From: a virus
Virus record (IMG/VR): IMGVR_UViG_3300027870_000339
Location: 1 to 31,266 of that record
DNA: 31,266 nt
Strand: one strand, 5' to 3'
Each line of letters begins with the position of its first letter. Positions within the stretch are counted from its first letter, which is position 1. The notes below the pieces were generated by a model that did not search any database, was not told the origin of the DNA, and saw only the letters and a program-made list of their open reading frames with translations. Positions 10,432-25,423 of the stretch are shown piece by piece. The position numbers and the translations under genes are program-made.

Positions 10432-10437
10432 CTTGAC

Positions 10438-10467
10438 ACTATACGGGCGCGTATATTCCCCGCACAA
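10438..10467 (-). promoter_or_regulatory. Repressor maintenance promoter (PRM-like)
   Basis: Read leftward, TTGTGC (10467-10462) and TATAGT (10443-10438) are 18 nt apart. The expected transcription start is at or within a base or two of the repressor ATG at 10431, so the mRNA would have no leader. Right operator 3 covers the -10 region, which would allow negative autoregulation at high repressor levels. Confidence 0.55.
10441..10454. promoter_or_regulatory. Right operator 3
   Basis: ATACGGGCGCGTAT has perfect ATACG/CGTAT arms around four bases and matches the 10496 site at 11 of 14 positions. It overlaps the -10 box of the repressor promoter. Confidence 0.6.
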
Positions 10468-10473
10468 CAAGCT

Positions 10474-10487
10474 ATTCATTCGCGTTT
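10474..10487. promoter_or_regulatory. Right operator 2
   Basis: ATTCATTCGCGTTT matches the site at 10496-10509 at 12 of 14 positions and begins 22 bp before it. It overlaps the probable -35 region of the rightward promoter. Confidence 0.6.
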
Positions 10488-10512
10488 GCTTTTCTATTCG
10501 TTCGCGTATAGA
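10485..10512 (+). promoter_or_regulatory. Right early promoter (PR-like)
   Basis: A weak TTTGCT (10485-10490) and a good TATAGA (10507-10512) are 16 nt apart. The expected start falls at about 10519-10521, on or next to the ATG of the Cro-like gene, so that mRNA too would be leaderless. Confidence 0.55.
10496..10509. promoter_or_regulatory. Right operator 1
   Basis: ATTCGTTCGCGTAT is the exact reverse complement of left operator 1. It overlaps the -10 hexamer TATAGA of the rightward promoter. Confidence 0.7.
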
Positions 10513-10520
10513 CTACACGC

Positions 10521-10766
10521 ATGGACAAAGACCCTACGACCCTTCTGCGAGAACTAAAAGCTGCGACATCTTGGAGTGAAACACGACTTGCATCGGAGCT
10601 TAAGACCTCTCAGCCAACCGTAAATCGCATTCTCAACGGGCAGGCACAATGCCTCAGCAAGACTCTTGCTGCCATTGCAAGCCTGCATGCTCAGCATTGC
10701 GAGGGTCCTAAGCGGAGAGCATCTGACGTGGTTGGAGCGGTCGTGGCAGCTGGCCCTAGCTCATAA
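10521..10766 (+). CDS. Cro-like repressor
   Basis: The 81-aa protein has a helix-turn-helix at about residues 19-41 (SETRLASELKTSQPTVNRILNGQ) that resembles the one in the divergent repressor, especially the QPT.NRIL.G recognition-helix segment. This suggests that both bind the same operators. It is the first rightward gene and has no ribosome binding site before its ATG. The C-terminal 25 residues are Arg/Ala-rich and probably disordered. Cro-like function is inferred from divergent position, size and the shared recognition helix. Confidence 0.8.
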   Translation: MDKDPTTLLRELKAATSWSETRLASELKTSQPTVNRILNGQAQCLSKTLAAIASLHAQHCEGPKRRASDVVGAVVAAGPSS

Positions 10767-10909
10767 CTCCACACCACCCGGCCACCGACCTTCCTGGCCG
10801 ACAGGGTAAGTAGGCGCCCTGAACGAACGAACAAGGTCACCTGAAATACCAGAGCAATTCGTTTGCGCTCCCACCGGAGCCTCGACAGCAAGCGTGATTT
10901 TCGTGCGCG

Positions 10910-10938
10910 TTGAGAATTGCTCATAGGAAATTGATTAT
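10910..10938 (+). promoter_or_regulatory. Possible promoter of the replication operon
   Basis: TTGAGA (10910-10915) and GATTAT (10933-10938) are separated by 17 nt, in the gap between the Cro-like and CII-like genes. The rest of the 10767-10962 gap shows no gene. The hexamers are moderate matches, so this is tentative. Confidence 0.3.
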
Positions 10939-11019
10939 TGGTGGAATTAGTTTGATGCGGAAATGTATCTCGCTAACTTCGAAAGCAGTACCCAAGGAAC
11001 GGAAGGAAAGACCGTGGAA

Positions 11020-11490
11020 ATGTTGACCGCCTACCAAGACATGATCAAGGTACACGGCTGGAATGGCACTGCTGCGACGCTCGGCATGACGAAGTCGCAG
11101 TTGGAGGCTCGCGTGTACGAGGTCAAAGGGCAGGGTATGCGCGTCGACACCGCGCTGCTGATCCAAAGCTACGCCGGGACGACCCACTTCGCCCAGGCTG
11201 TCGCAGTCGCGTCCGGCGGCGTGTTCATGGAATTGCCAGACGCCGAAGGCGTGACTGGCGAGGAGCTTCACGAAAAATTCCACGAGCTGTATTCCGAGCT
11301 GGGTGATCTCTCGGCCACCTACACGAAGGCTGTCAAGGATGGTGAGATCGATGCTCGCGAGCGGAGCGACCTCGAAGGAATCGGTCAGCAGATGCACAAG
11401 ACCATGGCCGAACTGATGGCCCTGATGTTTCAAATTTACTGCCGGCCGTCTGCGGCCAGCGAACAGGGAGTAGCAGGCAATGGCCGTTGA
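11020..11490 (+). CDS. CII/YmfL-like phage regulatory protein
   Basis: The protein of 156 aa starts MLTAYQDMIK and resembles the YmfL/CII-type regulators found between cro and replication genes. A helical DNA-binding region runs over AAYATLG-like GTAATLGMTKSQLEARVYEVK (about 16-36). A C-terminal DARERSDLEGIGQQMHKTMAELM helix suggests oligomerisation. An in-frame ATG at 10963 would add 19 residues of low complexity. The 11020 start is preferred because the recognisable domain begins there and AAGGAAAG precedes it, though with long spacing. It would control the switch to lysogeny or late expression, which is inferred from location. Confidence 0.6.
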   Translation: MLTAYQDMIKVHGWNGTAATLGMTKSQLEARVYEVKGQGMRVDTALLIQSYAGTTHFAQAVAVASGGVFMELPDAEGVTGEELHEKFHELYSELGDLSATYTKAVKDGEIDARERSDLEGIGQQMHKTMAELMALMFQIYCRPSAASEQGVAGNGR

Positions 11491-11653
11491 AGTGAAGCCT
11501 CGCGCAATGGTGGCTGAACTGCAAGCCCGCCGGCGCCTACTCCGTGAGGCTCCAACGCCGGCACCAGTCGACAAGGGCCGCGTCCTCGCGCACCTTCGCG
11601 CGCAGCTGGACGAGCTCCAGGCAAGTCAGGAGGTCGCACATGGCGACGCTTGA
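11480..11653 (+). CDS. Hypothetical 57-aa protein ahead of the primase
   Basis: This small frame (MAVEVKPRAMVAELQARRRL...) is helical and charged. It overlaps the end of the CII-like gene by 11 nt and the start of the primase gene by 14 nt. GGGAG lies upstream of its ATG. An arginine-rich helix and a second AQLDELQASQ helix suggest a coiled-coil-like pair. No family is recognised, but the double overlap indicates that it is a genuine operon member. Confidence 0.6.
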   Translation: MAVEVKPRAMVAELQARRRLLREAPTPAPVDKGRVLAHLRAQLDELQASQEVAHGDA

Positions 11654-14390
11654 GCAGATTACCGACCAAATGAGCGGCGCAGGCCTTCCCCCGCTCCCTT
11701 CTGGCCATCCTGTCGTCGACGGCAAAATCCACCGATTCGGCCGCGAAAAGAAGGCGTGGTATGTGCTGCGCGAGATGGATCTGCGCAACGGCAAGCGTGT
11801 TCTGACAGGTAGCTTCGGCATCTGGCGCGGCGACGACAATAACGCGGTGCCGGTCTCGATCGACTGGGGCGGCATCACGGCGGAAGAACGCGCCGAGGCC
11901 GAGCGCAAGCAGATCGAGTACCAGCGCGCCGAGGCTGAGCAGAAGCAGCGCGACGCCGAGATGGCCGCCAACCGCGCCCGCATGGCGTGGGGCGATGCGG
12001 AGAGCGCCGCCGATGTCGATCTGCATGCTTACCTGGAGCGAAAGCGCGTTGGGTGCGAAGGCACGCGCGTTGACGCAAAAGGTCAGTTGCTGATCCCGGC
12101 GCGTAAGTACAGCGTCGAGGGCGCCGTGCTCGCCGGCCTCCAGAAGATCACAGGCGACGGTAACAAGCGCTTCAGCTCGGGCATGGACATGATCGGCGCT
12201 TGCTGCCTGCTCGGAAAGGTCAACCAGGACACGCCACTGATCGAAATCGGGGAGGGCTACGCCACCTGCGAAACGTCACGCATGGCCACCGGCTTCGATA
12301 CCCCTGTAATGGTCGCCTTCAATGCCGGCAACCTGATGGCGGTCGCCCAGCAGCTGCGTCGCGACTTCCCAAATGCGCACCTCATGTTCCTAGCCGACGA
12401 CGACGCGCGCGTTGTGGCGCGCCTGCGCGAAGCGCTTCTCAAGGACTTCGACGCCGAATGGGAGCCGGTGATCGACGGCGTCGACCACCAGGTCGAGGCC
12501 AAGACGGGTGACGTCGTGCGCGTGCGCGCCACCTGGCGCCTCGACGGCACCGGTACCGACTACATCGAGGCCGACATCCGCGCCGGCCGCCAGATCCAGA
12601 TGCGCAAGTTCGAGAACGCCGGCGTGTCGCGCTCGCGCGCCGCTGTCCGCGCGGTCGGCAATGCGTCCATCGTGGTCCCGGTCTTCGCCAACCGCGCAGC
12701 GGACAGCAAGGATTCGGATTTCAATGACCTGTACCTGGCCGAATCGCTCGATGTGGTGCGAGGCCAGGTGCTGGCCGCGCGCTCCCGCGCCCTCACGATT
12801 CAACAATCGCCAGAGCCATCGACACCTGCTGACGAGCCGCCGGCGTACCTGGATGACGTACCTATGCTGGATGCGGCAGGGGCCGAGCCGCTGGTCGACG
12901 CACCTGGCGCCATGCGCATTCCAACACTCGAGGTGCTGCTGTCGCACTTCAGCCTGATCTACCCGACTACCGACGTCTGGGACAGCCTGCGCAAGCAACG
13001 CCTGAAGCGGTCGGCGTTTGCGGCTTGGGTGGGCAAGGAATTGGCTGAGACCTGGAACAAGGACCCGAAGCGGCGCACCATCCTGCGCGACTCCCTGCCT
13101 ACCCTCATTGGCGGCAAGGCAGTCGAGGGCGGGGCCGGCGGCGGCAAGCTCGGCGAGATGCTCGACAGCCTGACGCTGCTGCGCGGTACAGAGACGGTCT
13201 GGGATGCGATCGGCCAGCAGGTTATGTCGCTCGGCGCCGTGCGCGCCGACTACACGCCCGAGCTCACGTCTAAGTGGCAAGAGCATGCACAGCGGAAGAC
13301 GATCGAGGCCCGCAACCTGGTGTTCGATCCGACCCAAACGGCGGATCCTGTCAGCCACGTGAACATCTTCCTAGGCTGGCCGCTGTCGCCGAAGAATAAC
13401 GACGACCTGATCAAGCCAATCCTCGCGCTCCTCGCATCGCTGTGCGACGCCGAAGACCGGGTTGAGGACTGCGTCGAGTGGATCCTGCGCTGGCTGGCTT
13501 ATCCCCTCCAGCACCCGGGCGCCAAGATGCAGACCGCGCTGCTGATGTTCGGTGAGAAGCAGGGCACTGGCAAGTCGCTGTTCTTCCAGGACGTGATGCT
13601 GCCGATCTACGGCGACTACGGCACGGTGGCCAGTCAACACCAGCTAGACTCGACCTTCACGGCCTGGCGCAGCCGCAAGCTGTTCGTTCTGTTCGAAGAG
13701 GTGCTATCGCGCGATGACAAGTACAGCCACAACGGCACGCTCAAGTACATGATCACCGGCAAGACGATGAGCATCAACCAGAAGAACCTGCCGGAGCGGG
13801 ACGAGCGCAACCATATGAACTCGGCCTTCTTGTCGAACGAGCCGCAGCCGATCCCGATCGAGCTGGAGGACCGGCGCTTCATGGTGATCGAAGCCAGGCG
13901 GAAGCAGGATCCACAGTTCTACGCCGAGGTGCAGCGCTCGATCGCAGCCGGCGGGATCGAGGCCTTCTACCACTTCCTGCTCAATCTGCCGCTGGACGAC
14001 TTCAATGAGCACACCAAGCCGCCGATGACGCTGGCGAAAGAGCGAGTGATCGAGTTCGGCCTGGCCGGTTGGATGAGCTTCCACCGGGCGTGGAAGGACG
14101 GCTACCTAGATGCGCCGTACTGCTCCTGCCTGTCGGAGGACCTCTACATCATCTACAAGCGGTGGTGCGATAAGAGCGGAGAGAAGCCGCTGACCTTGTG
14201 CAAGTTCTCGGGCCTGATCGCCAGTCGGGAGCACAAGGCCAAGAAGAGTGTGGCGGTCGAGAGCAAGCACAAGAAGACGCGGATGGTGTTCATGGTCGAG
14301 AACTCAGACCATCCGGAAGACCTGGAGGCGCAGATCGCCAAGTTCAGGAAGCTGAGCGACGTTCGTGCGGACCGGGCATTGCAGGGTTGA
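11640..14390 (+). CDS. Toprim primase fused to DUF5906 superfamily helicase
   Basis: The 916-aa protein would prime and unwind phage DNA. A Toprim domain covers about 198-262, with E205 in IEIGEGYAT and the acidic DDD triad at 253-255 (FLADDDA). It is preceded by an 80-residue DNA-interaction region and a Lys/Glu/Ala-rich helix (80-120). A linker rich in Pro and Ala (about 390-430) leads to a DUF5906/D5-like helicase with Walker A GEKQGTGKS (638-646) and Walker B LFVLFEEV (681-688). The C-terminal basic segment (about 830-916) is likely a winged DNA-binding domain. The start is MATLEQITDQ; an upstream ATG at 11544 lies inside the 57-aa gene and is unlikely. AGGAGG lies 8-13 nt upstream. An iteron cluster follows directly. 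Confidence 0.9.
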   Translation: MATLEQITDQMSGAGLPPLPSGHPVVDGKIHRFGREKKAWYVLREMDLRNGKRVLTGSFGIWRGDDNNAVPVSIDWGGITAEERAEAERKQIEYQRAEAEQKQRDAEMAANRARMAWGDAESAADVDLHAYLERKRVGCEGTRVDAKGQLLIPARKYSVEGAVLAGLQKITGDGNKRFSSGMDMIGACCLLGKVNQDTPLIEIGEGYATCETSRMATGFDTPVMVAFNAGNLMAVAQQLRRDFPNAHLMFLADDDARVVARLREALLKDFDAEWEPVIDGVDHQVEAKTGDVVRVRATWRLDGTGTDYIEADIRAGRQIQMRKFENAGVSRSRAAVRAVGNASIVVPVFANRAADSKDSDFNDLYLAESLDVVRGQVLAARSRALTIQQSPEPSTPADEPPAYLDDVPMLDAAGAEPLVDAPGAMRIPTLEVLLSHFSLIYPTTDVWDSLRKQRLKRSAFAAWVGKELAETWNKDPKRRTILRDSLPTLIGGKAVEGGAGGGKLGEMLDSLTLLRGTETVWDAIGQQVMSLGAVRADYTPELTSKWQEHAQRKTIEARNLVFDPTQTADPVSHVNIFLGWPLSPKNNDDLIKPILALLASLCDAEDRVEDCVEWILRWLAYPLQHPGAKMQTALLMFGEKQGTGKSLFFQDVMLPIYGDYGTVASQHQLDSTFTAWRSRKLFVLFEEVLSRDDKYSHNGTLKYMITGKTMSINQKNLPERDERNHMNSAFLSNEPQPIPIELEDRRFMVIEARRKQDPQFYAEVQRSIAAGGIEAFYHFLLNLPLDDFNEHTKPPMTLAKERVIEFGLAGWMSFHRAWKDGYLDAPYCSCLSEDLYIIYKRWCDKSGEKPLTLCKFSGLIASREHKAKKSVAVESKHKKTRMVFMVENSDHPEDLEAQIAKFRKLSDVRADRALQG

Positions 14391-14606
14391 GCAGGGTTGG
14401 ACACAAACCCTGCAAGGCTGAAACCCGCATGAACAGTGGGTTCTAGCAGCGTAGGTAGGGTATGCAGGGTTTTACGCACATAGGTGCGAATTGCTGTGGT
14501 TCTGATGCCGGTCTTTTTTTTTTGACGCCCACATCAAAAACAACCCTGCATCCCTGCATACCCTGCCAAGAGTCAGTATCCATGCGGGTTACAGACTTGC
14601 AGGGTT
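14381..14606. repeat. Iteron cluster, candidate replication origin
   Basis: The 8-mer GCAGGGTT occurs exactly six times, four in plus orientation (14381, 14391, 14464, 14599) and two inverted (14406-14413, 14542-14549). Near copies lie at 14552-14557 and 14560-14566. A ten-base T run is at 14514-14523. The cluster begins in the last codons of the helicase gene and fills most of the 257-bp gap to 14648, which holds no other gene. Short mixed-orientation iterons beside a helicase-primase, plus an AT-rich tract, fit a phage origin such as that of P4. No replication factor binding is demonstrated. Confidence 0.55.
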
Positions 14607-14647
14607 TAGAGATTGGGCTGCAAAGCCTGCGAAATGAGGAGAGCAGT

Positions 14648-15403
14648 ATGCGGATGAGTGTGAAGACGACCTTCCCGGCCATGGCAGACCGCATCGCCGA
14701 GCTGGGCAGGCAAGGGCCGTTCGTGGCCGCGGTTTCGCTGACCCGCACCGCCCAGGACGTCCAGGCTGCTATCAAGGACGAGATGCGCGCCTCCTTCGAT
14801 CGTCCGACCGCATATGCCGTGAACGGCACGTACCTGAAGCGTGCGACGAAGACCAACCTCGAGGCGCGTGTCTGGGTCAAGGATGATCCGTTCGGCAAGG
14901 GTGTGCCTGCCGACCGCTTCCTGTCGCCGCAGATCTTCGGCGGTGGCCGCCGCCATAAGGGGGCCGAGCGCCTGCTCCAGGCCAATGGCTTGATGCCTGC
15001 CGGCTGGTTCCTGGTGCCGGCGGCGGGCGCCCAGCTGGACGCCAACGGCAACATCCGTCGCAGCCAGATCACCCAGATCCTGTCGCAGCTGAAGGTGCAG
15101 CGCGGAGCAGGCCACGAATCCCGCGCCACGGGCAGCCAGCGTTCGAACCGCACCATCGCGCGCCAGGGCGTGACCTACTTCGCACTGCCGAACGGGAACC
15201 GTGGCCTGCCGCCTGGTGTGTACCTGAAGCGCCGATTCGGCCATGGCACAGCGATCCGCCCGGTGTTCGTCTTCGTGTCGCAGGTGCAGTACCAGACCCG
15301 CCTGCGCTTCCATGAGGTCGCCGAGGCCACGGTGGCTGCTCGCTTCCCGCTGCACTTCGAGGCCGAAACGGAGAAGGCGCTGAGGACAGCGCGCATCCGG
15401 TAG
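14648..15403 (+). CDS. Phage minor-tail-Z-like / structural protein, uncertain
   Basis: The 251-aa protein starts MRMSVKTTFP, after AGGAGAG with 6 nt spacing. A longer frame from 14462 would cover the iterons and has no ribosome site. The N-terminus contains AVSLTRTAQDVQAAIKDEM and YLKRATKTNLEARVWVKD, and the C-terminus PVFVFVSQVQYQTRLRFHEVAEATV. This helix-strand-helix pattern is loosely like minor tail protein Z and HK97 gp10-type tail completion proteins. Its place before the terminase genes, rather than after the capsid, is unusual for such proteins. It could therefore be an unrelated structural or DNA-related protein. Confidence 0.45.
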   Translation: MRMSVKTTFPAMADRIAELGRQGPFVAAVSLTRTAQDVQAAIKDEMRASFDRPTAYAVNGTYLKRATKTNLEARVWVKDDPFGKGVPADRFLSPQIFGGGRRHKGAERLLQANGLMPAGWFLVPAAGAQLDANGNIRRSQITQILSQLKVQRGAGHESRATGSQRSNRTIARQGVTYFALPNGNRGLPPGVYLKRRFGHGTAIRPVFVFVSQVQYQTRLRFHEVAEATVAARFPLHFEAETEKALRTARIR

Positions 15404-15414
15404 CACCCCCCCTC

Positions 15415-15438
15415 CCCCGGGTTAGGTTCTTCCCGGGG
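15415..15438. repeat. GC-rich inverted repeat before the terminase genes
   Basis: CCCCGGG (15415-15421) and CCCGGGG (15432-15438) pair around a 10-nt spacer, in the 127-bp gap between the gpZ-like gene and the small terminase gene. Each arm also nearly pairs with itself. No T run follows, so it is not a clear terminator. It may belong to a packaging site, but this is only a guess. Confidence 0.35.
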
Positions 15439-15530
15439 TATGGCTGGCAAGGGTAATTCAGGCCCCGTCAGCGAACTAGCCGGACCCAAAAACATTTCCT
15501 GACAAACATCCTGACAACGTACCGAAACAC

Positions 15531-16097
15531 ATGCCGAACCTGACAACCATTGCCGAGTGGGCCAAGACCGTAGGGATTTCCCGCCAGTCCGCATACGACG
15601 CGGTGAAGCGCTGCGAGATCCCGGTCACCGACGGCAAGGTCGACCCGGACTATGCGTCGCACCTGTACGCAAAGAACACCCGCCAGCGCGCGAACGGCCA
15701 CCGCCCTGACCAACTGGCAAACGGGGCGCAGCCCGGGGCGACGGCGGGTACGGGAGGGGCGGGAGGTCCGGAGTCTCCAGCCAAGGTGCCGGGCTACGAT
15801 ACGAGCCGTGCGCGTAGGGAGGCGGCGGAGGCGGAGGCGGCCGAGATCAAGCTTGCCGAGATGGCCGGGAGGTTCCTGGTCAAGGCCGACGTCGAGGCCG
15901 CCATGTTCGAAGTTGCGCGCGGGCTGCGCGATGGGTTGAGCAACTGCGCGCGGCGGATCGCTGCGGAGGTCGCCGCCCTGACGACGGCCGAGGCCTGCGA
16001 GGACGTGATCGAGCGCGAGCTACTGGCTCTGCTCGAGAGCATGGCCCACATGCTGAAGTCCGACCTGGATGTCGACGTCGGCGAGGCTGTCGAGTGA
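15531..16097 (+). CDS. Terminase small subunit (Nu1-like)
   Basis: The 188-aa protein binds the packaging site and directs the large subunit. A helix-turn-helix lies at residues 6-35 (TIAEWAKTVGISRQSAYDAVKRCEIPV). A disordered Gly/Ala linker covers about 55-85, followed by an Ala/Glu-rich coiled coil (95-120, REAAEAEAAEIKLAEMAG) and a helical C-terminal assembly region. The order of domains and the one-base TGATG junction with the large subunit gene support the call. No strong ribosome binding site precedes the ATG. Confidence 0.85.
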   Translation: MPNLTTIAEWAKTVGISRQSAYDAVKRCEIPVTDGKVDPDYASHLYAKNTRQRANGHRPDQLANGAQPGATAGTGGAGGPESPAKVPGYDTSRARREAAEAEAAEIKLAEMAGRFLVKADVEAAMFEVARGLRDGLSNCARRIAAEVAALTTAEACEDVIERELLALLESMAHMLKSDLDVDVGEAVE

Positions 16098-18076
16098 TGC
16101 GCCTTGCTTCAGCAGCTGGCGTGGTGCGCGCAGCAGTAGGTCGCGGCCTGCAGCCCGACCCGAACTTGCCGGTGGACGAATGGGCCGACCAGCACATGGT
16201 CATCCCGAAAAGCGGTGGTGCCAGCGAGTACGGCAAGTACCGCACCAGCCGCACTCCGCACGCACGCCAGGTGATGCGCGCGTTGTCCCCGCACCATCCC
16301 TGCAAGCGGGTGGTTGTGATGGGCGCGTCGCAGATGCTGAAGACGCAGGTCGGCCTGAATTGGTTCGGGTCGACCGTACACCAGACGCCGTCGAATTTCC
16401 TGTGGATCCTCCCGACCGGCAAGCTCGCCAAGCGTGCGAGCAAGCGCATCGACAAGACGATCGAGGCGGTGCCGGTGCTGCGCGAGCGTGTCGCGGTGCC
16501 GCGCTCGCGCGACGCGATCAACACCATGGACACCAAGGAGTACATCGGCGGCGCGCTGACCATCGTCACCTCGGGGGCGGCCGCCAACCTGTCCGAGCTG
16601 TCCTGCCGCTACGTGCTGTATGACGAGGTCGACCGCGCTGACGCCAACGTTGACGGCGAGGGCGACACGGTTGCCCTGGCCGAAGCGCGCCAGACTACCT
16701 ACGAGCGCAACCGCAAGTCCTACTACCCCAGCTCGCCGACTGAGAAGGATGCCTCGGCCATCGAGGCGCTGTACCAGAAGGGCACGCAGCAGGAGGCGCT
16801 CGCCGATTGCGTGCACTGCGCCCACCCGCAGACCCTGGTCTTCGAGCGCCTGCAGGAGGACGAGGCTGGCCGTGCCATGTACCCGTGCGTTGAATGCGGC
16901 GCGTTCATGTACGAGACCGACAAGACCAAGATGTTCGAGCGCGGTGCGTGGACCGAAGGCGCGGCCGGCGACGGCGAGACGATCAGCTTCACCATCAATG
17001 GCATGTTCCTACCCTACGGCTGGTTCTCCTGGTCCGGCCTGCTGAAGGAGTACAAGGCGGCCAAGGCCAAGCTGGATGAGGGCAGCGAAGAGAAGATGAT
17101 CACCTTCTACAACACGCGCCTCGCCCGCAGCTGGGAGCGTAAAAAGGAGCAAACCAAGGCAAGCGAGCTGAAGGCGCGCGCCGAGCCGTACAAGCTGGGC
17201 ACCGTGCCGAAGGGCGGCCTGATTCTCACTGCCACCGTCGATACGCAGCCGGACCGCTTCGAGCTGAAGGTGACCGCATGGGGCGAGGCCCTGGAATGCT
17301 GGATCGTCGACTACCAGGTGGTGTCCGGATCGCCGTCCGACCAGAGCACACAGGACCGGCTCGACCAGCTGCTGCTCGGCCAGTACAAGCATGCAAGCGG
17401 ACGCATGTTGCCGATCAAGGCGACATTCATCGACTCGGGCGGTGCCAATACCCACGACGTGTACAACTTCACCCGCACCCGCCAGCACCGCCATGTGTAC
17501 GCGATCAAGGGCGAGTCTCGCTACGGCAAGCCGATCCTGGCGACCAAGCCGTCACTGGTGGACGTGAACTGGCAGGGCAAGAGCATTCCCCACGGCGCGA
17601 AGCTGTGGCTGATCGGCACCGACACCGCCAAGGATTACCTTGCAGCGCGCTACCGCCTGGTGGACGGCCCGGGCGCAATTCACTTTTCGGCGGACCTGCC
17701 GCTCGAATACTACGAGCAGCTCACGGCTGAATACTGCGTCAGTGTGTACAAACGCGGTCGGAAGGTACGCGTCTGGGAGAAGAAGAAGAACGACCGCAAC
17801 GAAGCGGGCGACCTGATGGTCTATGGCCTGGCCTGCGCCTACTACCTTGGCCTGCACAAAAAAACGCCAGCGCAGTGGCAACAGCTTCGCGACTTCGTCG
17901 ATCCGCAAACCCGCGACCTGTTTCAAGACCCGCCCCCGCCCGAGGCGGACGATACCCCGGTCGCTCCGGTAACCCCAGCATCAATTCCAACCACGCAACC
18001 AGCAGCCGACCCATGGACACCGAAATCGTTACCGTCATCCTCCCTGCCACGTCGGGCGTCAGGGAGGCAGTGGTGA
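16097..18076 (+). CDS. Terminase large subunit (GpA family)
   Basis: The 659-aa protein is the packaging ATPase and nuclease. The N-terminal ATPase has a GpA-type Walker A, GASQMLKT (76-83), with K82, and Walker B VLYDEVD (173-179), with D176 and E177. Two CxxC pairs (CVHC near 238 and CVEC near 267) form the zinc-binding insert of this family. The C-terminal nuclease shows acidic motifs ATVDTQPDRFE, FIDSGG and the later NEAGDLMVYG. The tail of about 50 residues is Pro/Ala/Thr-rich. The ATG shares one base with the small-subunit stop; a GTG three bases earlier is also possible. Confidence 0.93.
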   Translation: MRLASAAGVVRAAVGRGLQPDPNLPVDEWADQHMVIPKSGGASEYGKYRTSRTPHARQVMRALSPHHPCKRVVVMGASQMLKTQVGLNWFGSTVHQTPSNFLWILPTGKLAKRASKRIDKTIEAVPVLRERVAVPRSRDAINTMDTKEYIGGALTIVTSGAAANLSELSCRYVLYDEVDRADANVDGEGDTVALAEARQTTYERNRKSYYPSSPTEKDASAIEALYQKGTQQEALADCVHCAHPQTLVFERLQEDEAGRAMYPCVECGAFMYETDKTKMFERGAWTEGAAGDGETISFTINGMFLPYGWFSWSGLLKEYKAAKAKLDEGSEEKMITFYNTRLARSWERKKEQTKASELKARAEPYKLGTVPKGGLILTATVDTQPDRFELKVTAWGEALECWIVDYQVVSGSPSDQSTQDRLDQLLLGQYKHASGRMLPIKATFIDSGGANTHDVYNFTRTRQHRHVYAIKGESRYGKPILATKPSLVDVNWQGKSIPHGAKLWLIGTDTAKDYLAARYRLVDGPGAIHFSADLPLEYYEQLTAEYCVSVYKRGRKVRVWEKKKNDRNEAGDLMVYGLACAYYLGLHKKTPAQWQQLRDFVDPQTRDLFQDPPPPEADDTPVAPVTPASIPTTQPAADPWTPKSLPSSSLPRRASGRQW

Positions 18077-18366
18077 CAACCGACCTCCTCGATGACCCGG
18101 ACTTGATCGATTCGATCTTTGAGTTCATCTCAATTGAGTTTCCGGAAATGAGGGAGCGTGCGGCGGAGCTCAAGCAAATGGCCCGGCGAGAGTTTGCCGG
18201 CATTGAGACCTACATTCCGCGGCGTCCGAAAGCGGAGCGCGACAGGATCGTGCAGGAAGTGATGCGCTTGTTCGACGGACGCAATGCAACGGAGGTGGCG
18301 CGCCGGCTCAACATAAGCAGGGCTTCGGTGTACCGCATCATCAAGACACCGGGCCGAAAGAAATAA
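18073..18366 (+). CDS. Mor-family transcription activator-like protein
   Basis: The 97-aa protein matches the Mor transcription activator family of Mu. It has an acidic N-terminal helix (DLIDSIFEFISIEFPEMRERA), then the hallmark AGIETYIPRRPK, and a C-terminal helix-turn-helix (ATEVARRLNISRASVYRIIKT). The GTG at 18073 overlaps the terminase stop (GTGA). It is preceded by AGGGAGG with 5 nt spacing, which is much better than the in-frame ATG at 18013. It sits inside the head operon, not at an early-middle boundary as in Mu. The first of two 26-bp repeats begins directly after its stop codon, suggesting a possible target, but this is unproven. Confidence 0.75.
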   Translation: MTTDLLDDPDLIDSIFEFISIEFPEMRERAAELKQMARREFAGIETYIPRRPKAERDRIVQEVMRLFDGRNATEVARRLNISRASVYRIIKTPGRKK

Positions 18367-18392
18367 TCTCAGTTTTCCGAGAATTGAGACAG
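18367..18392 (+). repeat. 26-nt hairpin repeat, copy 1
   Basis: This is an exact copy of 23285-23310. As RNA the 10-bp stem pairs TCTCAGTTTT with AGAATTGAGA around a CCG loop and uses two G-U pairs. It begins right after the Mor-family stop codon and ends 22 nt before the gpW-like ATG. No T run follows it. Confidence 0.75.
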
Positions 18393-18414
18393 GCGCCTCA
18401 CTACCCTTGGCGAC

Positions 18415-18627
18415 ATGGCTATCTCACAAGCAGACCTCGACGCCCTCGATGCGGCAATCGCCTCCGGTGCCACTTCCGTGGTGTTCGATGGTCGGACCCT
18501 CACTTACCAGAACACCGCCCAGTTGATCGCGGCGCGTGACCATACCGCCCGGGTTCTCAGCGGCGGCATGCAGAACCGCGGGCCACGCCTGTTCCGCTTT
18601 GCGTTCACGACCAACAGGGGCGACTGA
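18415..18627 (+). CDS. Head-tail joining protein, gpW-like
   Basis: The 70-aa protein (MAISQADLDALDAAIASGAT...) has the gpW pattern: an N-terminal helix, a short beta hairpin (SVVFDGRTLTY), a second helix and a basic tail. gpW completes the head before the tail joins. It lies between the terminase and the portal genes, as in lambda. No Shine-Dalgarno sequence precedes the ATG. A 26-nt hairpin repeat ends 22 nt upstream. The stop overlaps the portal start by one base (TGATG). Confidence 0.75.
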   Translation: MAISQADLDALDAAIASGATSVVFDGRTLTYQNTAQLIAARDHTARVLSGGMQNRGPRLFRFAFTTNRGD

Positions 18628-20105
18628 TGCCCAACCTGATCGACCGCTTCATCGGCTGGGTTAACCCGCATGCTGGCATTGCTCGCCACCTGGCGCGCCG
18701 CCAGCTCGAGCGCGCCTATGAAGCGGCCAGCCCGCGCGACACATGGCGCCCGCGCCGCGCCGGGGCCAGCGCGAACACCGACCACCGGGCGGACGCCAGG
18801 ACGCTGCGCAGCAAGGCACGTGCGCTTGTGCAGAACGTGCCGTATATCTGGGCTGGCCTCGATGGACTGGCGGTGGCCACGGTCGGCGCCGGTATCATCC
18901 CACGCGCAACCGGCCGAGAGAAGGACAAGATCAACGCGCTGCTGAGCGACTGGTGGAAGGTGTGCGACGCCGACGGCCGCTTCGATTTCTTTGGCCTGGT
19001 GAAGGCAGCCTACTTCGCGATGGAGCAAGACGGCGAAGTGCTGGTGCGGCTGCGCACCCGGCGCGCCACCGATGGTCTGCCGGTCCCGCTGCAACTGCAG
19101 CTGCTGGAAATTGACTGGATCGACGACGCCCGCACCGGCACGTTCAACGGCAACCAGATCGTCAACGGTATCGAATACGACATGCTCGGTGCCGTCGCTG
19201 CCTACTACCTGTGGGACCAGCATCCCGGCGAGATCGCCGTCGGCCGCGGTCGCGCGCAGAGCCGGCGCGTCCCGGCCAAGGACATCATCCACCTGTTCAA
19301 CCCGGGCCGCCCAGGGCAGGGCCGCGGCTTCACCCGCCTGGCGCCCGTCATCGCGCGCACGCGCGACCTGCAGCTTTACGAGGACGCAGAGCTGGCCCGT
19401 AAGAACCTCGAGTCGCGCCTGTCCGTCCTGGCCAGCGGTGACCTGACCCAAATGGAAAACCCAGCTGGAATGGGCGAGGCCGCCGGCGCGCATGGCTCTG
19501 GCGCGCGCGACATGGGCGAGCTGGGCGGCGGCAACATCTTCGGCATGCCGGCCGGGATGAACTTCACTGTCGTTGAGCCGAAAGGCATGCCAGGGTATGT
19601 CGATTACCTCAAATTCAATTTGCACCTGATCGCCGCCGGCATGGGCGTCCCATACCACTTGCTCACCGGGGACATGAACGAGGTCAACTTCAGCAGCGCG
19701 CGCGTACGCCTTCTCGACTTCCGTCGCGCGGTCACCCAGATGCAGTGGCTGACCCTGATCCCGAAGCTGCTGGTCCCAATCCACGACGCCTTCATCGACC
19801 ACGCTTGGCTGGCTGGCCTGATCAAAGTGCTCGACAAAGCGGTGGACTTCAGCCCGCCGAAGTGGGACTACGTGAACCCCGAGCAGGATGTGAAGGCCGA
19901 CCTCGCGGAGATCAGCGGCGGCCTGGCCAGCATCAGCGAAAAACTGCGTCAGCGCGGCTACGACCCGGACGTTGTATTCGAAGAATTAAAGAACGACATC
20001 GAAAAGCTGCGCGAGATGGGCATCCTCGATGTGATGCTGTTCCTCCAGAAGGGGAACCTGCCAACTCATTCAGCTGAAGATTCAGAGAAGGCGAAACCAG
20101 CCTGA
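18627..20105 (+). CDS. Portal protein (lambda gpB family)
   Basis: The 492-aa protein forms the dodecameric DNA entry ring at one capsid vertex. The N-terminus (MPNLIDRFIGWVNPHAGIAR) and the segment NVPYIWAGLDGLAVATVGAGI resemble lambda-family portals. Further family features are DWWKVCDADGRFDFFGLVK, LEIDWID and, in the C-terminal half, MNEVNFSSARVRLLDFRRAV. Length is normal for the family. The C-terminal EKLRQRGYDPDVVFEELKND region probably forms the crown helix. It lies between gpW and the accessory head genes. Confidence 0.92.
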   Translation: MPNLIDRFIGWVNPHAGIARHLARRQLERAYEAASPRDTWRPRRAGASANTDHRADARTLRSKARALVQNVPYIWAGLDGLAVATVGAGIIPRATGREKDKINALLSDWWKVCDADGRFDFFGLVKAAYFAMEQDGEVLVRLRTRRATDGLPVPLQLQLLEIDWIDDARTGTFNGNQIVNGIEYDMLGAVAAYYLWDQHPGEIAVGRGRAQSRRVPAKDIIHLFNPGRPGQGRGFTRLAPVIARTRDLQLYEDAELARKNLESRLSVLASGDLTQMENPAGMGEAAGAHGSGARDMGELGGGNIFGMPAGMNFTVVEPKGMPGYVDYLKFNLHLIAAGMGVPYHLLTGDMNEVNFSSARVRLLDFRRAVTQMQWLTLIPKLLVPIHDAFIDHAWLAGLIKVLDKAVDFSPPKWDYVNPEQDVKADLAEISGGLASISEKLRQRGYDPDVVFEELKNDIEKLREMGILDVMLFLQKGNLPTHSAEDSEKAKPA

Positions 20106-20135
20106 TCGACACTGTATTTATTCTGAAAGGTAAAA

Positions 20136-20552
20136 ATGCCAATCCTGCAAAAATTCAATGACTTCGTCGAGCAGGTGCTGCGCGCGAAGCACGACTTCGG
20201 GTCGCACGTGTTCAAAGTCGCGCTGACGAACGCGGCGCCGGCCGCGACGAACACCGTGCTGGCGGACATCACCCAAATCTCCGGCGGGTCGTATACGACC
20301 GGCGGCTACGTGCTTGACGGCGTGACGCTGACCGAGACCGGTGGTACTGCCAAGGTCGTCATCGCCGACGAAGTTATCACCGCGTCCGGTGGCTCGATCG
20401 GCCCGTTCCGCTACGCCGTCGTCTACAACGACACCACTTCCGGCAAGCCCCTGGTCGGCTACGTTGACCGTGGCGACAGCATCACGCTGCTCGACGGTGA
20501 AGCGGTGACCTTCGACGCCGACGCAGCGGCCGGCGTGCTGACCCTGGCCTGA
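20136..20552 (+). CDS. Phage structural protein, head-associated, 138 aa
   Basis: This is a beta-rich protein that starts MPILQKFNDFVEQVL, after a GAAAGG site. Its middle has FKVALTNAAPAATNTVLADITQI and SGGSIGPFRYAVVYNDTT. This recurring phage structural family has a short N-terminal helix and an Ig-like or jelly-roll-like body, and is found near portal and capsid genes. It may be a decoration or neck protein. The exact role is not known. Confidence 0.7.
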   Translation: MPILQKFNDFVEQVLRAKHDFGSHVFKVALTNAAPAATNTVLADITQISGGSYTTGGYVLDGVTLTETGGTAKVVIADEVITASGGSIGPFRYAVVYNDTTSGKPLVGYVDRGDSITLLDGEAVTFDADAAAGVLTLA

Positions 20553-20554
20553 TC

Positions 20555-20974
20555 ATGAGCATTCGCGAACGAATCCTCGCGCGCCCCGACCTGGACGCCC
20601 TGCGCGCCGCGCGCAACATCGACCAATTAGCCGCCGCGCTCAATGCTGAGGGATTGACCGCGGCGGCCGAGCGTTACATCACCCTGCGGACCATTCTGGG
20701 CGAATGCGCAAACGGCCGCGCGATCGTGCTCGCCCTGCGCACCGCCGCGCCGGCCGACGCTATCGTCGAAGAATCGCTCAATTTCCTGCGCGACGATTCA
20801 GGCTTCGACATAGGCCACCCTAAAACGCGCGAGGACATTGATCGCTTGGTCGAGGCGGGCGTGTTCTCTGCTGCGCAACGTGACGAGCTGCTCGCACTTG
20901 CCCTGCGGCCGGTCATCGTTACCCGCGACCAGGTCAACGAAGTGATGTTCAACGCTGACGGATCGGAGAAGTAA
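20555..20974 (+). CDS. Phage structural-region protein, 139 aa
   Basis: This helical protein begins 2 nt after the previous gene. Repeated Ala-rich helices (ARPDLDALRAARNIDQLAAAL, ADAIVEESLNFL) and a later HPKTREDIDRLVEAGVF...RDELLALA segment are visible. The same order, next to the 138-aa beta-rich protein, recurs in related prophages, suggesting a partner in head assembly. Function is unknown. Confidence 0.65.
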   Translation: MSIRERILARPDLDALRAARNIDQLAAALNAEGLTAAAERYITLRTILGECANGRAIVLALRTAAPADAIVEESLNFLRDDSGFDIGHPKTREDIDRLVEAGVFSAAQRDELLALALRPVIVTRDQVNEVMFNADGSEK

Positions 20975-20976
20975 GC

Positions 20977-21351
20977 ATGCCGGCAAACAAGTCATTTTCT
21001 GCGCTCTTTGCCGCCGGCACCAATGTACCCGCCGGCACCACGAGAGCCAGCCCGGTGGTGGGAAGTACCGTCAACACCACAGCGGCCTACGGCGGCGAGC
21101 TGGCCTGGCGGATCACGAACGGCGGCGCGCTAGGCGCGGCCTGCACGATCCTGTTCCAGGTGTCGCCCGACGGCACAAACTGGTTCGACTATTACCCTGT
21201 CGGCAGTTCTGACTTGGTGTCCGGCACCGTATCGCAGGGGCCGTCGATCACGCTCAGCCGCAGCGGTATGTATCTGCGTGCCATCGCCTACGGCAATACG
21301 ACCAGCGCCTGTGCCGTGGAGGCGGGTGTGATGCTGACCACGGGGCTGTAA
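20977..21351 (+). CDS. Phage beta-sandwich structural protein, 124 aa
   Basis: The beta-rich, Gly/Thr-rich sequence has no signal peptide. Stretches GELAWRITNGGALGAACTILFQVSPDGTNWFDYYPV and MYLRAIAYGNTTSACAVEAGVML look like one beta sandwich, such as those of head fibres or capsid decoration. It is packed between the 139-aa gene (2 nt) and the LamG gene (one-base overlap, TAATG). The specific role is not recognised. Confidence 0.65.
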   Translation: MPANKSFSALFAAGTNVPAGTTRASPVVGSTVNTTAAYGGELAWRITNGGALGAACTILFQVSPDGTNWFDYYPVGSSDLVSGTVSQGPSITLSRSGMYLRAIAYGNTTSACAVEAGVMLTTGL

Positions 21352-23084
21352 TGGCTCTCGCGTGCTACCAGCCGCGGGGAAATCTACAGGTCGACCAGTC
21401 GCAGCGGCTGGCGGCCGGTCTGCGCATTGCTTTGCTGCCGGGCGTCAGCCGATCATTCGACCCGGCCAGCATGCGCACGGTCGCGCCCAACGGCATGAAG
21501 CAGGTTCCGGCACCGACTGGCTATGCGGCCGGATTCGGTGCGACCCTTGGCGCGGCTACCAGCGACAAGGTGCTGACGCACATCTCAGGCGCGCTGCCGA
21601 CGGCGCGTAGCTACTTTTTCCGAGCGCGTCGCAATGGCGCCGGCGGCGGCAGCCTGGGGCGCCTGTTCGACAAGTCGAGTGGCAGTAGCGGGCAATTCCT
21701 ATACTTTCACAACGCCTCCGGGTTTCTGCGGTACGGCATCCATATCGCCAGCTCGGAGACGAATACCGACATTGTTTCCGGTGCGGACATCACGCCTGGG
21801 CAGTGGTTCGATGTGCTGGTCACCCACTTGCAAGTCGGCTCGGTCGCAACCATTAACGCCTACATCAATGGCAATCAGGTCGTTGCAAACCGCGTCATCA
21901 ACGGCACGCTGACGGATGCGGCCGCGACCGTAATCTGCGTGGGCAACCGCAATTCCGACAACGCCCGGGTGTGGGACGGCCTGATCGCTGCGGCGTACGT
22001 CTGGGACAAGGAGCTGACCCTGGCCGATGCGGCGGCGCTGTCGATGAACCCGTGGGCGCTGTTCGCGGCGCCCGAAGAGGAAGACTATGTCCTGCGGGCG
22101 GCGGTTCAGCAGTCCATTTCGGTAGTCCGCGCCTCGCTTCTGCTTTCTGGTAGTGAAGTCGCACTGCGTGTGTCGCGTCGCTCTGCGGTGCAGCCGGCGC
22201 AAATGCAAGTCACCGGCGCAGACGTCGCTCTGGAGACATCGCGCAGGATCGGGGTGCAGCCCGCGGTGCTGTCCGCCACCGGCGGCCAGGTCGACTTGTG
22301 GGCGGCGCGGCGCCTTGCGGTCGCACCGGTCGCGTCCACCCTGATGGGCGGCGCGATCGAGCTCGTATACACGCCAGCCCAGGAAGGGAACAGCTACAGC
22401 ATTGCGGTCTCGCCGGCGGTACTGGTCCTAACGGGCGGCAACGTCACGATGCGCGTCAATAGGCAAATACCGGTGGATGCTGCCCAACTGGCGATCGGTG
22501 CCGGGCCGGTGCGAATGATAGCTGCGCGTCGCCAGCTGGTGTCGCCAGCGCACTTGGTATTGGCTGGCGGCGACGTAACGCTTCGCTTCTCCGCAGAATC
22601 TCCACCGCTGGATATTGCGAAAGTCCACTCGTCGCGGGTCGTGATCTTTGAAGGAAGTGGCAGCAAGGTTGTGGTGTTCGAGGGCAGCGGTAGCAAAGTT
22701 GTCGTGTTCGAGGGTAGTGGAAAACGAATGAGGTTCAACGATATGAGTGCAAAAGTACCAATCAAGGTCGGCGAGAAATGGATTACCGATCGCGACCGCG
22801 ACGAGATCAGCTATTACGCAGCCGACATCACCGACGAGCTGGCTGATAGGAATACGACCGCCATTGCCGATGAAGTCACCGCGCCAGTGTTTGGCGTGGA
22901 ACTCCTGGAAGGGCCACAGGTCCAGGTGGCGACGGTCGACGGGATAGAGCGGACGTATGTCGTCGTCAAGCTCGGAGACGTCGATGGCGCCATCCCCGAC
23001 GACTGGCGGTGGGTGGCGCGCGTACCATGCGCGAATGGCGAGCGCTTCGATAGAACAACCTGGTTCAATGAGGTCGACCCATAA
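21351..23084 (+). CDS. LamG-domain, repeat-containing phage head protein
   Basis: The 577-aa protein has a concanavalin/LamG-like domain at about residues 60-230 (SYFFRARRNG, FDVLVTHLQVGSVATINAYING). Seven degenerate ~23-residue units follow (about 255-414), with the theme V.PA.L.LTGG.V.L...RR, a likely repetitive beta stalk. Three VV(I/V)FEGSG(S)K units come next at 430-458. A distinct C-terminal domain (about 465-577) begins MSAKVPIKVG, and an ATG at 22744 may start it as a separate 113-aa product. The gene lies between portal and capsid genes. A carbohydrate-binding or decoration role is inferred from the LamG fold, not shown. Confidence 0.7.
   Translation: MALACYQPRGNLQVDQSQRLAAGLRIALLPGVSRSFDPASMRTVAPNGMKQVPAPTGYAAGFGATLGAATSDKVLTHISGALPTARSYFFRARRNGAGGGSLGRLFDKSSGSSGQFLYFHNASGFLRYGIHIASSETNTDIVSGADITPGQWFDVLVTHLQVGSVATINAYINGNQVVANRVINGTLTDAAATVICVGNRNSDNARVWDGLIAAAYVWDKELTLADAAALSMNPWALFAAPEEEDYVLRAAVQQSISVVRASLLLSGSEVALRVSRRSAVQPAQMQVTGADVALETSRRIGVQPAVLSATGGQVDLWAARRLAVAPVASTLMGGAIELVYTPAQEGNSYSIAVSPAVLVLTGGNVTMRVNRQIPVDAAQLAIGAGPVRMIAARRQLVSPAHLVLAGGDVTLRFSAESPPLDIAKVHSSRVVIFEGSGSKVVVFEGSGSKVVVFEGSGKRMRFNDMSAKVPIKVGEKWITDRDRDEISYYAADITDELADRNTTAIADEVTAPVFGVELLEGPQVQVATVDGIERTYVVVKLGDVDGAIPDDWRWVARVPCANGERFDRTTWFNEVDP
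22113..22590 (+). repeat. Seven degenerate ~23-aa coding repeats
   Basis: Seven consecutive units of about 22-25 codons share the pattern V.PA.L.LTGG.V.L...RR in the LamG protein. The fourth unit is longer by five or six residues. DNA identity between units is low, so the repeats are old and kept at protein level. Confidence 0.65.
22638..22724 (+). repeat. 30-bp tandem repeat encoding VVxFEGSGSK
   Basis: Three head-to-tail units lie at 22638-22667, 22668-22697 and 22698-22724; the last lacks one codon. They encode a 10-residue Phe-Glu-Gly-Ser-Gly motif between the repeat stalk and the C-terminal domain. Confidence 0.8.
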
Positions 23085-23269
23085 TGATCAACATCGCAGA
23101 GCGCCTGAATGTGAAGGCCCAAGTCAAGAGCGTGGGCGGCGAAGATGCAGTGCCCAGCACGCAGCCAGCAGGAACGGGAGCGCAAGCCGATAGCCAGGTC
23201 GCGGCTTACCCAGCCAAAAATCTAGTTTTGGATGGTGGCCGCTACTTCGTTGCGAACTACGAAAAGTAG
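23084..23269 (+). CDS. Hypothetical 61-aa protein before the capsid gene
   Basis: The ATG shares a base with the stop of the LamG gene (TAATG). The sequence is Gln/Ala/Gly-rich with a C-terminal PAKNLVLDGGRYFVANYEK. No family is recognised. It is followed by the second copy of the hairpin repeat. Confidence 0.55.
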   Translation: MINIAERLNVKAQVKSVGGEDAVPSTQPAGTGAQADSQVAAYPAKNLVLDGGRYFVANYEK

Positions 23270-23281
23270 CCAGTCTGAAAT

Positions 23282-23310
23282 CTGTCTCAGTTTTCCGAGA
23301 ATTGAGACAG
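23282..23310 (+). repeat. 26-nt hairpin repeat, copy 2, with extended stem
   Basis: The bases 23285-23310 match copy 1 exactly. Here the three preceding bases CTG extend the stem to 13 bp, with two G-U pairs and a CCG loop. It ends 22 nt before the ATG at 23333. The spacer has no ribosome binding site. Confidence 0.75.
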
Positions 23311-23332
23311 TGCAATGAGCAGAATGGGCTAC

Positions 23333-25423
23333 ATGACGACGCCTACTGCTACTACGCAAACTCGCACGGCCACCGACCCGCGCAACATGCCATCGCTCTC
23401 GCGCGATGCGCAGCTGGTGCCGACCACCTATAACGAAGCCGATAACACCGTCGAGGTGGTGTGGACGACCGGAGCGCGCGTGCGGCGCTACGACTGGTGG
23501 ACCGACAGGCCGTACGAAGAAGAGCTGGTGGTGACGCCGGAAGCAGTTGACATGACGCGCTTCGAGGCGGGCACGGTTCAGGTGATCGACAACCACCGCA
23601 TGCACGGCGGCGTCCAGTCGATCATCGGAATCGCCTTGAACGGCACGATCGCCGATGGAGAGGGGCGTGCGACTCTGCGTCTCTCGACCCGCCCGGAGAT
23701 GGAGGGAATCGTCGCCGACATTAAGGCTGGCATCATCCGTTCGATTTCCTTCGGATACAACACCACTACCACCGAGATCACTCGCGCAGTCGACCGCACC
23801 GACGGCGGAACGGTGGACCTTTACCGTGCTGTCCGCTGGCAGCCGTTCGAAATCAGTTTTGTCACCGTTCCAGCTGACGCTGACGCGAGTACGCGCAGCC
23901 AGCCGGCGAACGGTGTCCCATGCGAGTTCATCACCCGGGCGCCCGCCCATCCTTCAACTTCCCAGGAAAACCAAATGCCTCAAGCTCAAGGTACCCAGTC
24001 GGGCGCACCGAATCACGCGCCCGTCGTCGAAAACCGCAGCAGCGCGCCGCCAGCTCCAGCCCCGGCTGCTACTCCTGCAGCGCCTGCACCGTCCGCGGAC
24101 GATGCTGCCGCCCGCGCCGCCACCGAAGCCGCGATCCGCTCGGCTGACATCACCGAACTGTGCGTCCGCCACGGCGTGACCAACCTGGCCGCTGGCCTGA
24201 TCCGCAGCGGCGGCACCGTCGACCAGGCGCGCGCTGCCGTGCTGGAAGAGCTGGCCCGCAACGACGCCGCCCGCGGCGGCCACAACAACGTCGGCCGTAT
24301 CGTCACCGTGAGCGACGCGCAGCAGGTGCGCATGGCCGGCATCGAAGAAGCGATGATGCACCGCATCCACGCCGGCACCAAGCTGACCGACAACGGTCGC
24401 CAGTACCGTGGCATGAGCTTGCTCGAAATCGGCCGCGACTTCCTGGAATCGCAAGGCGTCAACACCCGTGGCATGGATCGCATGCGTCTCGCCCACGAGA
24501 TCCTGCACTACCGCTCCGGCATGCACGGCACCAGCGACTTCGCCGCCCTGTTCGCCAACGTGGCCAGCAAGCGCCTGCGCGACGCATATGCCGAGAATGC
24601 CGGCACCTACACCCAGTGGGCACGTCGTGCGCCGAACGCCCCGGACTTCAAGAACATCAGCATCGTGCAGCTGTCGGGCGCCCCCGAGCTGCTGCAGACC
24701 AACGAGCACGGCGAGTTCAAGTACGGCACGATGAAGGATGCCGGCGTGAACTATGCACTGGTGACCTACGGCCGCATGGTGTCGTTGACCCGCCAGGCCA
24801 TCGTGAACGACGACCTGCGCGCCTTCGAGCGCCTGGTGTCGGCATTCGGTGCAAGCTCCAGCCGCCTCGAAAATCGCCTGGTCTACAGCCAGCTGACCGC
24901 CAACCCGACCATGGGTGACGGCACCGTTCTGTTCCACGCCGACCATAAGAACCTCGGCACTGGCGCCGGCTCGGCCCTGCAGCTGTCCGCCCTGAAGGCT
25001 GGCCGCACCGCCATGCGCGTGCAGAAGGGCCTGCAGAACGAAGAGCTGAACCTGTCGCCGAACTTCCTGATCGTCCCGGCTTCCCTGGAGCAGGACGCTT
25101 ACCAGCTGACCAGCTCGAACTATGTACCGGCCAAACAGGGCGACGTGAACGAGTTCCGCACGGGCGGCCGCACCGCGGTCGAGCCGATTGTCGAGCCGAT
25201 CCTCGACGGCGTGAGCGACGGCGTGAGCGACAAGGAATGGTACCTGGCCAGCAACAACAGCCAGGTCGACACCGTCGAGTACTGCTACCTGGACGGTGCG
25301 GAAGGCCCGGTCATCGACAGCCAGAACGGCTTCGAGATCGACGGCGTCACCTGGAAGTGCCGCCTGGACTTCGCCGCAAAGGCAGTCGACCACCGCGGTC
25401 TGTACAAGGGCGCCGGCGCGTAA
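23333..25423 (+). CDS. Prohead protease / major capsid fusion protein
   Basis: The 696-aa protein joins two functions. Residues about 65-190 are an HK97-type S78 prohead protease. Its catalytic H88 is in VIDNHRMHGG, and the nucleophile is probably S139 in SISFGY; a conserved EISFVTVPA follows. An Ala/Pro-rich linker covers about 205-265. Residues about 270-696 resemble Mu gpT-type major capsid proteins, with LFHADHKNLG and SALKAGRTAMRVQKG as landmarks. An ATG at 23975 (residue 215), with AGGAAAA before it, could yield a free capsid chain of 482 aa. Starts at 23315 and 23324 are also in frame, but none has a good ribosome site. The start at 23333 keeps the spacing to the hairpin equal to that of gpW. 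Confidence 0.88.
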   Translation: MTTPTATTQTRTATDPRNMPSLSRDAQLVPTTYNEADNTVEVVWTTGARVRRYDWWTDRPYEEELVVTPEAVDMTRFEAGTVQVIDNHRMHGGVQSIIGIALNGTIADGEGRATLRLSTRPEMEGIVADIKAGIIRSISFGYNTTTTEITRAVDRTDGGTVDLYRAVRWQPFEISFVTVPADADASTRSQPANGVPCEFITRAPAHPSTSQENQMPQAQGTQSGAPNHAPVVENRSSAPPAPAPAATPAAPAPSADDAAARAATEAAIRSADITELCVRHGVTNLAAGLIRSGGTVDQARAAVLEELARNDAARGGHNNVGRIVTVSDAQQVRMAGIEEAMMHRIHAGTKLTDNGRQYRGMSLLEIGRDFLESQGVNTRGMDRMRLAHEILHYRSGMHGTSDFAALFANVASKRLRDAYAENAGTYTQWARRAPNAPDFKNISIVQLSGAPELLQTNEHGEFKYGTMKDAGVNYALVTYGRMVSLTRQAIVNDDLRAFERLVSAFGASSSRLENRLVYSQLTANPTMGDGTVLFHADHKNLGTGAGSALQLSALKAGRTAMRVQKGLQNEELNLSPNFLIVPASLEQDAYQLTSSNYVPAKQGDVNEFRTGGRTAVEPIVEPILDGVSDGVSDKEWYLASNNSQVDTVEYCYLDGAEGPVIDSQNGFEIDGVTWKCRLDFAAKAVDHRGLYKGAGA
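23964..23977 (+). promoter_or_regulatory. Internal ribosome binding site of the capsid part
   Basis: AGGAAAA (23964-23970) stands 4 nt before an in-frame ATG at 23975, at the start of the linker. It could produce the capsid domain without the protease. Confidence 0.5.

Follow-up and report, generated by a model that had tools for sequence, protein, structure and literature searches.

Two head genes of the virus sequence IMGVR_UViG_3300027870_000339, analyzed here over a stretch of 31,266 nt (the window), are each preceded by a copy of a DNA element that is almost certainly the operator of a Mor-like protein within a promoter. According to sequence comparisons across relatives, the two copies very probably are operators of late promoters served by an activator of the Mor type, at which the head transcripts would start with the AUG. 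The initial annotation of this sequence had mainly suggested an RNA hairpin that controls translation or RNA processing, a reading that is not supported, and had named binding sites for the Mor-family protein as an alternative, which is strongly supported by the coevolution of the protein's recognition helix with the sites and by the co-occurrence of the element with mor.

Genomic Context of the Repeated Element

Bases 18367–18392 and 23285–23310 are identical, an exact 26-nt match as originally claimed, and such a match never arose in dinucleotide-shuffled versions of the window. This repeat makes up the core of a longer, 27-bp DNA dyad of the form TGTCTCA-N13-TGAGACA. Copy 2 (23283–23309, plus strand; TGTCTCAGTTTTCCGAGAATTGAGACA) is a complete dyad; copy 1 (18365–18391, plus strand; AATCTCA-N13-TGAGACA) has two end mismatches and would, as an operator, lie at about -49 to -23. 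Copy 1 is located upstream of the gene for a gpW-like head-tail joining protein (18415–18627, plus strand; NF047331, PHROG 2545) and a lambda-type portal gene, copy 2 upstream of the gene for a prohead protease/major capsid fusion (23333–25423, plus strand; NF045541 with 716 bits, PHROG 4523). From TGAGA to the ATG there are 25 nt at each place, and neither start region contains a Shine-Dalgarno sequence; both the equal distance and the missing ribosome binding sites had been pointed out before. The starts at 18415 and 23333 are candidates for leaderless initiation. The latter, which the initial annotation had also chosen, is kept across relatives. The ORF lister placed the capsid ATG at 23315, upstream of the proposed -10 hexamer, and automatic annotation of such phages may put the capsid start wrongly in this manner (23315 instead of 23333). 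A terminator reading of the dyad was rejected, as the plus strand has no T run and a scan gave a single match, on the minus strand.

The interval between the portal and capsid genes holds five accessory ORFs (window positions 20136–23269). The largest of them (21351–23084) encodes a Laminin-G domain and, beyond it, three EGSGSK-type peptide repeats in tandem. Within positions 1–1600 of the window are ORFs that look like host genes (ATPase/STAS-like), followed by an integrase-like gene on the minus strand (1599–2708). Since host-like ORFs precede the integrase-like gene, an edge of the prophage probably falls within the window, as far as reading alone can tell.

A pattern scan for the element across viral contigs gave 88 stretches. 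Relatives were fetched by their portal, Mor, and capsid proteins so as not to select by the element itself, and include sequences from Massilia, Undibacterium, Curvibacter, Rhodoferax, Variovorax, Hydrogenophaga, Aromatoleum, and Stenotrophomonas as well as many uncultured phages. Among head modules with enough upstream DNA, the dyad precedes gpW in 103 of the 103 that carry mor and in none of the eight that lack it; these eight are also more distant, and the co-occurrence is an association rather than proof. In several phages mor is found approximately 0.5–2 kb further upstream with other DNA in between, and the dyad remains with gpW.

The Mor-Like Protein and Coevolution with Its Proposed Sites

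The stop codon of a mor-like gene (18013–18366, plus strand) adjoins copy 1. The initial annotation had correctly assigned this gene to the Mor family but had given its product 97 aa, whereas the protein has 117 aa when read from the ATG at 18013. It belongs to the Mor/C activator family: its match to PF08765 scores 33.6 bits against a Pfam cut-off of 24.9, and PHROG 532 and 836, to which it also corresponds, are described as late transcriptional activator. An AF2 model of the protein is too weak (pLDDT 63) to build an argument on; its best PDB match is the Mu C complex 9l0x (E 0.066). The Mu activator complexes 9l0x and 9l0y each appear with four activator chains, a number that may be connected with the two nested dyads found here. 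No close relative of this Mor exists among GenBank phage records, where the sole match was a Mu-like Mor of a Shewanella phage. The helix-turn-helix (HTH) domain resembles that of resolvases (HTH_7 with 27 bits; matches to Tn552, Tn3, and gamma-delta), and family profile searches found no recombinase catalytic domain in the 117-aa protein.

The recognition helix, NISRASVYR in this virus, varies among relatives together with the half-site. Helices of the type [SG]RA[STW]VYR go with GTCTCA (approximately 77 loci), [RK]TTVYR with GT[CT]CCA-like sites (9/9), ST[AQ][ST]VYR with TTCTCA-like sites (10 loci), [HN]RATVYR with GTCGCA (2 loci), and SRRTVYR with GTGCCA or GTGACA (2 loci), the half-site classes having been drawn up after the data had been seen. 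On a tree of the portal proteins the helix state requires 10–14 changes, and in phylogenetically independent pairs on this tree the half-site changed the same way seven to eight times and the opposite way never (p 0.008–0.016). Conservative A-to-S changes in the helix (SRS[ST]) mostly have no matching change in the site. The two copies of one phage have a common half-site class and spacing, save for a few weak sites, and because copy 2, kilobases away, agrees with copy 1, a joint transfer of mor with the adjacent copy does not account for the pattern. This coevolution of helix and half-site is the strongest evidence for the predicted reading of the dyad by the Mor-like protein.

Proposed Promoter Architecture

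A -10-like hexamer, NANNNT, is always present 10 nt downstream of the right half-site, and this distance stays constant while the gap between the half-sites varies between 13 and 16 bp among relatives. Spacings of 14, 15, or 16 bp occur for instance in loci L185, L186, L098, L105, L109, L324, L327, and L330, and the spacing in the two copies of one phage mostly shifts together. The second and sixth positions of the hexamer, the two that matter most in a -10 element, are A in 88 of 89 and T in 87 of 89 non-redundant sites (below 80% identity), respectively, and the neighboring columns are variable. Copy-1 hexamers have A2 in 46/46, T6 in 45/46, and T1 in 43/46 of these sites; at copy 2, A2 and T6 are each found in 42/43, and position 1 is mostly C. 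The corresponding hexamers in the window are TACCCT (18402–18407, plus strand) for the putative gpW promoter and CAGAAT (23320–23325, plus strand) for that of the protease-capsid gene, each 10 nt after its operator copy. In relatives whose gpW ATG is 50–74 nt downstream, the hexamer is still at its place beside the dyad. A promoter scan found no sigma-70 promoter of the TTGACA/TATAAT type in the region.

Directly upstream of both copies are A-rich stretches. The one at copy 1 (18356–18366, plus strand) overlaps the mor stop codon and is a possible proximal UP element; the one at copy 2 (23275–23282, plus strand) has its counterpart in the A/T content of relatives. At positions -6 to -2 from the operator, the A/T fraction is 0.70–0.97 in non-redundant relatives vs. 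a window mean of 0.38.

A third dyad with the same geometry precedes a holin/lysozyme cassette in longer contigs, with a leader of tens of nucleotides; these lysis genes were named by reading their sequences rather than by a family search. Examples are L024:10658–10690 and L333–L344. The window stops short of the lysis region.

According to the mechanism that we propose, the Mor-like protein from the upstream gene would, as the coevolution suggests, bind the dyad, either as one dimer or as two. Occupying positions from about -49 to -23 of a sigma-70 promoter with a -10 element but lacking a -35, it would recruit the host RNA polymerase, so that the head genes would be turned on late in infection; in relatives, the third operator would serve the lysis genes. 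Operator geometry, -10 signature, co-occurrence with mor, and coevolution were computed, and from these we infer activation by the Mor-family protein, which we regard as very likely.

Alternative Functions of the Dyad

The RNA fold that the initial annotation gave for the repeat is predicted for both copies, it is stable, and a start codon is nearby at both places. Moreover, the position pairs 11/17 and 12/16 often are G-U rather than A-C. It is nevertheless highly improbable that an RNA hairpin governs the translation or processing of both head mRNAs, because the element keeps its distance to the hexamer and not to the ATG, occurs also in front of the leadered lysis genes, and varies in arm spacing (13–16). 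The proposed check for stem covariation in relatives also spoke against it: pair 8/20 is Watson–Crick in 23 of 105 distinct sites, which is about chance (approximately 17 are expected from the column make-up, calculated by hand), and where the outer arms change in a compensatory way, they do so in step with the Mor recognition helix. Rfam yielded no family at the gathering threshold and two chance-level matches (E 3–6). The inner arms TTTTC/GAGAA (positions 11 and 17) have one orientation relative to the -10 in approximately 90% of sites, with pair 11/17 being T-G in 93 of 105 distinct sites, and this fixed asymmetry might reflect a contact of the polymerase rather than wobble pairing.

The same orientation would be unneeded by a symmetric dimer and thus counts against the Mor-activator reading as well, as do the mostly C-initial hexamers of copy 2, which make a poor -10. 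Furthermore, the Mor operator at Mu Pm comprises 16 bp (5-6-5) centered at -43.5, whereas the dyad described here has 27 bp with a gap of 13–16 bp and is centered near -36 if the hexamer is placed at -12 to -7, so that the contacts with the polymerase must differ. A protein lying across -49 to -23 could also repress, and an operator overlapping both the -35 region and the spacer occupies a place typical of repressors. That the Mor-family protein represses these promoters, or represses and activates them at different times, is improbable all the same: no -35 hexamer that it could block was found, the A-rich upstream stretch is as in Mor promoters, and known proteins of the Mor/C family act as activators (PMC4390567, PMC4287176). 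Almost no weight is given to the idea that the copies are res-like sites at which a resolvase-type HTH protein flips or deletes the intervening segment. The resemblance of the HTH domain to resolvases fits this idea, and so does the half-site TGTCT, which we take to be similar to res half-sites. The protein, however, has no recombinase catalytic domain, the -10 hexamer is at a fixed spacing, and the copies flank essential head genes while a third one precedes lysis genes.

Probable Leaderless Head Transcripts and a Second Inverted Repeat

The start codons of the two head genes are close to the -10: the ATG follows the hexamer after 6–8 nt at most sites of copy 1 and at nearly all of copy 2. 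Of these starts, 1/33 at gpW and 0/41 at capsid have a Shine-Dalgarno core, vs. 10/22 portal starts. A clean split in which leadered genes have a Shine-Dalgarno sequence did not hold, as it was found in only 4 of 10 leadered relatives. The capsid gene opens with ATGACGACGCC and continues C- and A-rich in most relatives; CA repeats downstream of the start are known to aid leaderless translation (PMC9031893). From the computed lack of Shine-Dalgarno sequences and the distance between -10 and ATG we infer the exact start site and leaderless translation: the transcripts would begin at or within 1–2 nt of the AUG, and it is likely that both the gpW and the capsid transcripts are leaderless. Transcription start sites vary by a few nucleotides, and distant relatives have 50–74 nt between dyad and gpW ATG, so the same promoters could start further downstream, or several nucleotides upstream, and produce a short leader. 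This is rather unlikely given that nearly all copy-2 sites have the ATG 6–8 nt past the hexamer and that these starts almost never have a Shine-Dalgarno sequence. A literature search for leaderless late capsid mRNAs found nothing pertinent.

A second inverted repeat surrounds the -10 hexamer. Its arms, one to the left of the -10 and one between the -10 and the ATG, are complementary, and their sequences differ freely between phages. Fixed-centre positional counting gave weak signals only, because the centre of the repeat shifts between phages, and the fold energy of each site's own arms was compared with that of chimeric arms instead. Own arms reach -9.85 vs. -8.10 for chimeras at copy 1 (z -4.4) and -8.87 vs. 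-5.74 at copy 2 (z -8), an advantage matched in 0–1 of 10,000–20,000 permutations. Neither the 12 leadered copy-1 promoters nor the 11 lysis promoters nor an upstream control show the repeat, which occurs only where the ATG is at the presumed transcript start, a restriction that fits a hiding of the AUG in read-through RNA. The fold values are similar on both strands in a strand-bias test of RNA vs. DNA, and an RNA role is therefore argued from the position of the repeat and not from wobble pairs. As in hairpins of the T4 gene e type, the 3' arm in this family covers or abuts the start codon and the 5' arm is upstream of the presumed transcript start. The 5' arm would thus be left out of the correct transcript, and the inverted repeat would mask the AUG only in read-through RNA. 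The chances are about even that the repeat functions in this way, with head protein being made only from the gene's own activated promoter. In the window, the structures between the -10 flank and the ATG are weak (-5.9 kcal/mol for 18392–18420 and -3.5 kcal/mol for 23310–23338, both plus strand), so this reading concerns the family more than this phage. An RNA role may exist for this neighboring repeat, which the initial annotation had not described, but not for the hairpin that it had.

Comparison with Known Systems and Implications

The initial annotation knew of no described element of this form. The kind is already known from the Mu promoters Pm, activated by Mor, and Plys, PI, PP, and Pmom, activated by C, which have in common with the promoters proposed here a Mor/C-family protein, a dyad replacing the -35 element, a -10 hexamer, an A/T-rich stretch just upstream, and the control of several late operons, lysis among them, by a single activator (PMC4390567, PMC4287176). 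At Pm, the alpha C-terminal domain of the polymerase binds this A/T-rich stretch (PMC4390567). Unlike Mu, the phages here have a lambda-type portal and a protease-capsid fusion, and the start codon of the head genes is at the presumed transcript start. The operator geometry, the leaderless capsid mRNA, and the hairpin logic appear to be new.

In T4, the promoters of gene e, soc, 49, and I-TevI are located in the 5' part of a helix that hides the start in read-through RNA (PMC3014915), and the same may be true here. In contrast to T4, the arms are freely variable, a Shine-Dalgarno sequence is missing, and a Mor-like activator takes the place of the T4 late sigma factor. The SAS/ESAS elements of cluster K mycobacteriophages are likewise repeated, contain inverted repeats, and keep a constant position ahead of start codons (PMC3203893). 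SAS, however, is a 13-bp element with a Shine-Dalgarno core, whereas the element described here has none and its dyad is tied to the -10. Lambda cI is an example of a phage mRNA starting at the AUG (PMC9031893); in the present case, the leaderless transcripts would be those of highly expressed structural genes.

The many independent changes of recognition-helix residue and operator base form a naturally occurring table of specificities for the Mor/C family. The proposed promoters further predict that, in prophages of Burkholderiales, the phage proteins made in the largest amounts are translated from leaderless mRNAs, and with these promoters the promoter-dependent unmasking of start codons would become cleanly testable outside T4.
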